Part shown: positions 49,102 to 50,939 of the stretch, piece after piece | Numbering within the stretch: the stretch's first letter is position 1 | Layout of the letters: the number at the start of each line of letters is the position of its first letter | NCBI GenBank assembly: GCA_003245675.1 | Contig: QKCN01000062.1 | Location: 1-64,000 of the forward strand | Length of the DNA: 64,000 nt | Origin: Bacteriovoracaceae bacterium | GTDB lineage: Bacteria > Bdellovibrionota > Bacteriovoracia > Bacteriovoracales > Bacteriovoracaceae | Direction: 5' to 3' | Notes under the pieces: model-generated | Told to the model about the DNA's origin: nothing | The model's database searches: none | The model's input: the letters and a program-made list of their open reading frames with translations, nothing else | Translations under genes and position numbers: made by a program

Positions 49102-49111
49102 AAGGTTGATA

Positions 49112-50050
49112 ATGAAAAATGTAAAAGCAAATTTACAAGCAAGAAGTCAGCAACGACTAGGATCATTTTTTAAACATACAAGTGAAGAAGTTCAACTACT
49201 CCATGCCCCTTCTGATCTAGGAGTCATTCTCAACGGTGGTCGAAATGGCAGCAAATTTGGCCCATTAAGCCTTGAAAATTGCCTCAAGAGCTTTATTCCC
49301 CTTAATCCAGCTAAAAGCCTAGCCTCACACCAACTCCTCAACCCGAAGCAGGAATACAAAGATACCGATCTTGAAAATTTGGTCAAGGCACACTGCCATG
49401 AGCAGACTACAGAATTAAATGCCCTAAAAGAATTAATGAATACACCATGTTCATTACGCTTACACTTAGGAGGAGGGCATGACCATGCCTACCCTCTGCT
49501 CAAAGCAATTGAAAAATCAAAAAAGGATAAAATTCTTTACCTCAATCTCGATGCCCATTTGGATACTCGGACTGATACTTGGAATAATTCTGGCACCCCC
49601 TTCCGCCAATTTGCCGAAGAAACTCAAGTTCCTTTTGAACTCGTGCAAGTGGGGACAAATCCCTTTTCGAATGCACAAGAAACATTTTCGTCTTTTAAAA
49701 ATCCTCTTTCACAAATGAGAATATTTCCCATCCATTTGTTTGAGAACCTGTCAGAGGTCGACAGCTTACTGCACTATTTGCAACTAAAAAAAGACTATTT
49801 CATCGTAGTTGGTGTTGATTGTGATATTCTAAGTGGCTCCCAGCTCCCTGCTGTTAGTGCGGCCAATGCCCTAGGTCTCCCCTACAAACAAATTCGCAAG
49901 ATTTTAGATTTTTATCGCAATCAGATTGAGCAGGAAGAAAAAATCATCGGGTTCTATGAATACAATCCCGTCTACGACGATATGTCCGCCAGTTCAGCCA
50001 AAAAAATCGCTTATCTTATTTATGAATCAATTTACGGAAGTCAGATTTAG
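49112..50050 (+). CDS. Ureohydrolase (formimidoylglutamase/arginase family)
   Basis: LHLGGGHDHAYPLLKAI; YLNLDAHLDTR; VVGVDCDIL. Start set to ATG 49112. Confidence 0.87.
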   Translation: MKNVKANLQARSQQRLGSFFKHTSEEVQLLHAPSDLGVILNGGRNGSKFGPLSLENCLKSFIPLNPAKSLASHQLLNPKQEYKDTDLENLVKAHCHEQTTELNALKELMNTPCSLRLHLGGGHDHAYPLLKAIEKSKKDKILYLNLDAHLDTRTDTWNNSGTPFRQFAEETQVPFELVQVGTNPFSNAQETFSSFKNPLSQMRIFPIHLFENLSEVDSLLHYLQLKKDYFIVVGVDCDILSGSQLPAVSAANALGLPYKQIRKILDFYRNQIEQEEKIIGFYEYNPVYDDMSASSAKKIAYLIYESIYGSQI

Positions 50051-50054
50051 GGAA

Positions 50055-50102
50055 TAAAAAAAAGCCTATGAAGAATTGGGAGAGACTTCGATAGGCTTTT
50101 TT
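50055..50102. terminator. Bidirectional rho-independent terminator
   Basis: AAAAAAAGCCTATGAAG...CTTCGATAGGCTTTTTTTT. Confidence 0.82.
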
Positions 50103-50160
50103 TTGAGAGACAAATGCAGAATACGAAAAATTCCTTTCCCCATATCCTACACACACACAC
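50055..50160 (-). ncRNA. Candidate sigma-54-dependent sRNA with 5' GU-repeat
   Basis: TSS predicted at 50160 from the consensus sigma-54 promoter; ends at the bidirectional terminator; no ORF in this orientation. Confidence 0.45.
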
Positions 50161-50170
50161 CCGACACTAC

Positions 50171-50187
50171 TGCAATGAGCGTGCCAA
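50171..50187 (-). promoter_or_regulatory. Consensus sigma-54 promoter, leftward
   Basis: Minus strand TTGGCAC-GCTCA-TTGCA. Confidence 0.65.
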
Positions 50188-50441
50188 AAATTGGCTATCC
50201 TTAAACTTTGTCATAACATATATTTTTCAACAAGAAGACGCTTTGTGTCAAGAGCAGGCAGTCATTATTATGACAAACAACCCTAAAAACATAGTCAAAA
50301 ACTTGACGAAATTAAGAAAAAAAACAAAACAGCAAAAATTATTTTCCGTATTTTCATTTTTTCCATAAGACTGTAAAATTACTTACGTTTGATCATTATG
50401 TGTTCAAGTAGTTTTCTAATATCCATGGAAAAGGAGATTTT

Positions 50442-50939
50442 ATGTTAAAAAAACTAGCACTATCGTTGTCTGTATTACTAACTCTTATGCTTGCCGGATG
50501 TGGCTCTAACGCGAAAAAAGCTGATGATGCAGCTCTTAGCGCTGCCGATGCTATGCCACAATCAGCTTTTGAAGTGAATAGCGATTCTGATTCTATGACT
50601 GCAGGATCTCTTCAAACTGTTCATTTTGCATTTAACTCATCAGCTCTTTCTGATGATACAAGAAATGCATTGGATGCCAATGTTGGCTTCCTTTCAGAAA
50701 ATGCAAATGTTCAAATTCAAGTTGAAGGCCACTGTGATGAAAGAGGAAGTATTCAATACAACCTCGCGCTTGGAGAAAGAAGAGCAAAAGCTGTTCGCGA
50801 TTATCTTATCGCTAAAGGTATTCCTGCCGAAAGAATTACAACTGTTTCTTTTGGAAAAGAAAAACCTCTTGGCTTTGGACATGACGAAATGGCTTGGGGA
50901 AAAAACCGCCGTGCTAACTTTGTAATTACTGCGCTATAA
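50442..50939 (+). CDS. pal: Peptidoglycan-associated lipoprotein (OmpA-like)
   Basis: Lipobox LAGC; QIQVEGHCDERGSIQYNLALGERRAKAVRDYLIAKGI. Confidence 0.95.
   Translation: MLKKLALSLSVLLTLMLAGCGSNAKKADDAALSAADAMPQSAFEVNSDSDSMTAGSLQTVHFAFNSSALSDDTRNALDANVGFLSENANVQIQVEGHCDERGSIQYNLALGERRAKAVRDYLIAKGIPAERITTVSFGKEKPLGFGHDEMAWGKNRRANFVITAL

Follow-up and report, generated by a model that had tools for sequence, protein, structure and literature searches.

On the minus strand, between two plus-strand genes, the window (the whole 64,000-nucleotide stretch of DNA analysed here, from a genome of the Bacteriovoracaceae, a family placed in the Bdellovibrionota) carries a gene for a small RNA (sRNA) whose promoter, enhancer, structure and conservation can all be read from the sequence. 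It represents a family that is apparently undescribed and belongs to no known one: Rfam searches at gathering and relaxed thresholds gave sub-threshold matches only, with none to a Csr/Rsm model, and no description of it was found in the open-licence papers on Bacteriovorax and Bdellovibrio that were searched. From these features we infer transcription, an activator, the binding of CsrA and the existence of targets, and on balance we are inclined to see the RNA as a sigma-54-dependent, CsrA-binding, trans-acting sRNA of a new family, for which a FleQ/FlrC-type activator is probable.

An earlier reading of the DNA (the sequence-only reading) had recognised a consensus −24/−12 element, TTGGCAC-GCTCA-TTGCA, on the minus strand at 50187–50171 (TTGGCACGCTCATTGCA). 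The element is indeed there, and is the single exact match to TTGGCACN5TTGCA in the 2.59-Mb assembly of this organism, in which the reversed control pattern has none. Because about 0.3 matches per 2.6 Mb would be expected by chance (our own estimate), an exact match is weak evidence by itself, and it is conservation that decides. The start of transcription had been placed at 50160; this is the first G of a GU run, where GTGTGTGTGTGTAGGATATGGGGAAAGGAATTTTTC begins ten bases past the promoter, and among the copies described below 10–13 nt separate the −12 C from the GU run, a spacing that fits a sigma-54 start. From here the predicted sRNA extends for about 104 nt (50160–50057, minus strand, supported by covariance model and fold), through a 5′ leader of six GU repeats (50160–50147), a hairpin whose apical loop contains GGA (50152–50114) and a conserved single-stranded linker, UGUCUCUCAAAAA (50112–50100), to a strong intrinsic terminator. 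The stem-loop of the terminator (about 50057–50104) can serve both strands, as had been supposed, and is shared with a convergent gene for an arginase-family ureohydrolase (49106–50050); the divergent neighbour is a pal-like gene for an OmpA-family lipoprotein (50442–50939), and both lie, as reported earlier, on the plus strand. Read on the sRNA strand, the terminator loop of the window copy has GUCUCUC once more (AAGUCUCUCCC), a repeat that most other copies lack. The sequence-only reading saw no ORF in the minus direction, and an ORF scan of the locus likewise found none of at least 60 aa on that strand; as the spacings between conserved elements in the alignments also vary by non-multiples of three, a coding origin for the transcript was rejected.

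How widely is this arrangement conserved? When the intergenic region was compared with relatives by blastn, the best matches fell exactly in the promoter–terminator interval, and the first eleven copies had in common the sigma-54 box, the GU leader, the GGA hairpin, an invariant GUCUCUC linker and the terminator. A covariance model (R1), built from the transcript only, with the promoter excluded, was used to search 372 genomes of the phylum. It matched 98 of the 130 genomes of the same family (the window sRNA at 50160–50100, with 64 bits and E = 4e-12) and, weakly, one other genome, with no credible match among the 242 other genomes of the phylum. Two matches (one in genome G370 and a second one in G100) were rejected as weak and without a promoter, to leave 99 copies, almost always single, in 98 genomes and 33 genera. 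The sole genome in which two R1 copies both have a promoter (G078; loci L106 and L111) may hold two species, as its assembly is 9% contaminated.

As the promoter was absent from R1, the DNA upstream of each copy provides an independent test. An exact TGGC-N8-TGC is present at 94 of the 99 copies, with one substitution in four (L133, L151, L159 and L171) and a contig edge in the remaining one, the −24/−12 bases being conserved at 98 of 98 assessable copies across the 33 genera; a GU run of 6–12 nt is found in all 99, and RpoN in 123 of the 130 genomes of the family. It had been anticipated that promoter, GU repeat and terminator would be conserved together between pal and its upstream gene. The elements are conserved, but pal lies near the sRNA at only 41 of 99 loci (the ureohydrolase gene at 74 of 99), and since this linkage is common but not universal, the sRNA is a free-standing gene. 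The family-wide conservation argues for the earlier interpretation of a sigma-54-controlled sRNA. New to that interpretation are the hairpin with its GGA loop, the UGUCUCUC linker, the enhancer of tandem sites and the wide range of the family. The idea that the promoter is a functionless chance match to the consensus, for which the expected 0.3 exact matches per genome might speak, is scarcely credible in the face of conservation in 33 genera, covariation in the RNA and the enhancer sites. An exact-pattern scan of 85,462 species yielded 61 loci, with labels that were nearly all Bacteriovorax, Halobacteriovorax, Bacteriovoracaceae, Bacteriovoracales, Bacteriovoracia or Halobacteriovoraceae; the remaining few were broad or older (Oligoflexia, Bdellovibrio sp., Bdellovibrionales, Deltaproteobacteria and Proteobacteria).

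Covariation in the alignment of 99 copies speaks for the hairpin: eight of its ten pairs have changed on both sides. The cells with both-side changes number 65, whereas shuffling gave 12.9 ± 9.9 and the slid controls never gave more than 26. Fitting the alignment to the model biases it towards structure, but the slid controls are nonetheless far lower. Folds of single sequences gave z-scores from −3.2 to −7.1 (−5.7 for the window sRNA), and GGA lies in the apical loop of 96 of the 99 predicted folds, most commonly in the context AAAGGAUUU. The hexamer AAGGAU is present in 84 of 99 copies. In most minimum free energy (MFE) folds its outer A and U are paired, which reduces the hexaloop to a GGA triloop; in the window copy the hexamer is AAGGAA, with a predicted loop of AAGGA.

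An ANGGAX hexaloop on a stem is the high-affinity target of CsrA/RsmE (PMC4005645), and the SELEX consensus for CsrA is RUACARGGAUGU (PMC7652899). The apical loop of the sRNA, mostly A-A-GGA-U, fits this code, and the RNA therefore most likely binds CsrA. The csrA gene, which in the genome considered here sits between a gene for a flagellin-domain protein and fliW, is present in 122 of the 130 family genomes, nearly always as a single copy; being nearly universal, it makes co-occurrence uninformative as a test. With the CsrA partner deduced from a short motif, one may ask whether the hairpin instead binds another protein, or whether the RNA is a decoy for another RNA. We consider this improbable, as A-N-GGA-X with a free N is the specific CsrA/RsmE code and almost every genome of the family encodes CsrA.

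The sRNA resembles CsrB/CsrC and RsmX/Y/Z in being short and intergenic, in showing A-N-GGA-X in hairpin loops, in ending with an intrinsic terminator and in occurring in a genome that encodes CsrA. It differs from them in its sigma-54 promoter, its additional GU leader and UCUCUC linker, and the lack of an Rfam match. A role as a CsrA sponge is also called into question by the number of sites: several GGA hairpins per RNA are usual in Csr/Rsm RNAs (22 GGA motifs in CsrB, eight in RsmZ), whereas each RNA of the main family has one clear GGA loop, and genus g32 and genome G109 have two candidates. Further points against CsrA binding are a stem that exceeds the length of most SELEX hairpins and the incomplete hexaloop in the predicted folds, and the GU leader and conserved linker need some explanation other than CsrA binding. 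If each RNA offers a single hairpin, it would have to be abundant to titrate CsrA effectively; alternatively, CsrA may be a partner in pairing through the UGUCUCUC linker. McaS and GadY of E. coli, which combine pairing with CsrA binding, are also comparable: here too a possible pairing region accompanies one or more GGA sites, although promoter type, sequence and host are different and pairing by the present RNA is hypothetical.

This raises the question of whether the RNA acts simply by base pairing, the UGUCUCUC linker (UCUCUC), the GU leader or both annealing to mRNAs, with the GGA hairpin merely contributing structure or stability. Both segments are nearly invariant across 33 genera and predicted to be unpaired, and Qrr and GlmZ are sigma-54 sRNAs that act by base pairing (as published work also states for GlmZ). 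We nevertheless regard this as rather unlikely. A target search with TGAGAGACA in six genomes gave no enrichment over the reversed control, and Hfq was not found in the organism's own genome (an assembly that is 88% complete). Moreover, it is the linker and leader that have been dropped in diverged genera, and the GGA motifs that have been retained. These diverged relatives came to light when family genomes without an R1 match were searched with the enhancer pattern and with the enhancer and sigma-54 patterns together. In seven genomes (G106, G107, G108, G031, G109, G075 and G138), what follows the sigma-54 site resembles a short RNA in which one or two hairpins are candidates for a GGA loop; most of the seven have a terminator, and all lack the GU leader and UCUCUC. 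Their loops are AAGGAU, AUGGAU, ACGGAA, ACGGAU, AGGGAU and AAGGAA, so that the N of A-N-GGA may be A, U, C or G while the A and the GGA are constant, in agreement with the CsrA/RsmE code. The candidate hairpins appear in the MFE folds of G075, G109 and, in part, G108, and do not appear in those of G106 and G138. The four g32 genomes (G106, G107, G108 and G031) also retain RpoN, CsrA and the tandem enhancer.

About 100–135 nt upstream of the sRNA are two palindromes of the form GTCA-N6-TGAC in tandem, GTCATAATAATGAC (proximal, 50261–50274) and GTCAAGTTTTTGAC (distal, 50294–50307), both given on the minus strand. At least one exact GTCA-N6-TGAC lies upstream of 74 of 98 copies, and two in tandem, 30–34 bp apart with at most one mismatch each, upstream of 59 of 98, compared with none in shuffles; the median start of the proximal one is −104 relative to the beginning of the R1 match. 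In 40 of the 130 family genomes the exact tandem is present, nearly always at the sRNA locus. These palindromes equal the published FleQ consensus, the 14-bp box GTCaNTAAAtTGAC (PMC8125075; see also PMC10723142), of which FleQ-regulated promoters in Pseudomonas often have more than one; the difference is that the product here is an sRNA and that its activator is a putative one. In another family of the phylum, a GTCA-N6-TGAC box and a sigma-54 site precede fliL–fliM. The organism's own genome encodes RpoN and about eight sigma-54 activator-like proteins, two of which map next to flagellar genes (L040 directly ahead of rod genes and fliF, L037 close to fliD). From the box match, the box ahead of fliL–fliM and the activators beside flagellar genes, it follows that the regulator is probably FleQ/FlrC-like. 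A strictly flagellar role for the sRNA was rejected: FliM was not found in the four g32 genomes or in G027, yet all five have the enhancer and the RNA.

GlmY, a sigma-54 sRNA activated by QseF/GlrR, offers another parallel, having, like the present gene, a sigma-54 promoter with upstream activator sites. In GlmY, these sites are TGTC-N10-GACA rather than GTCA-N6-TGAC; there is no sequence relation to it in Rfam, and no evidence here of RapZ or of a glmS target. The RNA may work like a Csr/Rsm RNA under GlmY-like control without being a member of any known family.

Taken together, these observations suggest a scheme in which a FleQ/FlrC-type enhancer-binding protein would bind the tandem palindromes and switch on RNA polymerase–sigma-54 at the −24/−12 box, giving an RNA that extends from the GU run to its own terminator. 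The GGA hairpin of this RNA would hold CsrA, which would then be either removed from target mRNAs or made a partner in pairing via the UGUCUCUC linker. The activator and sigma-54 steps rest on conserved DNA, while we infer those that involve the short RNA and CsrA. Bacteriovoracaceae are predators of other bacteria. More tentatively, and with rather less confidence than in CsrA binding as such, we suggest that this is a family-wide class of RNA that joins sigma-54/FleQ-type control to CsrA, and that such an sRNA, a minimal form of CsrA binder that has a tandem enhancer of its own, may help to set the switch between free-swimming attack and growth in prey, alongside FliW. In the FliW system of Campylobacter, by contrast, CsrA control has been described as operating without antagonizing sRNAs (PMC4894983). 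Among other predatory Bdellovibrionota, attack-phase sRNAs and merRNA are known from Bdellovibrio bacteriovorus; merRNA holds a c-di-GMP riboswitch and three of the sRNAs listed there are preceded by FliA promoters (PMC3627812), whereas R1 finds no credible relative of the present RNA outside Bacteriovoracaceae. A deeply conserved regulatory RNA would be added to predatory bacteria, where few are known, and, if the scheme holds, it would be a minimal CsrA-binding sRNA under sigma-54 control. Since a promoter, an enhancer and a candidate protein partner can be specified, the proposal lends itself to tests in cultures of Halobacteriovorax or Bacteriovorax, and the sRNA could be a way into the timing of motility and growth in these predators.

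Finally, we draw attention to the pairing of enhancer box and sigma-54 site at other loci. In other Bdellovibrionota (families f6, f16 and f22; loci L246–L251, L252–L253 and L257), the two lie ahead of genes for TPR proteins to which no role is assigned. In all five species of one genus, g3 (G002 and G092–G095; loci L227–L231), a second enhancer and sigma-54 site precede a gene for a short lipoprotein-like product (MKSVLLSL...SCQSQ), which is possibly a second target of the same activator.
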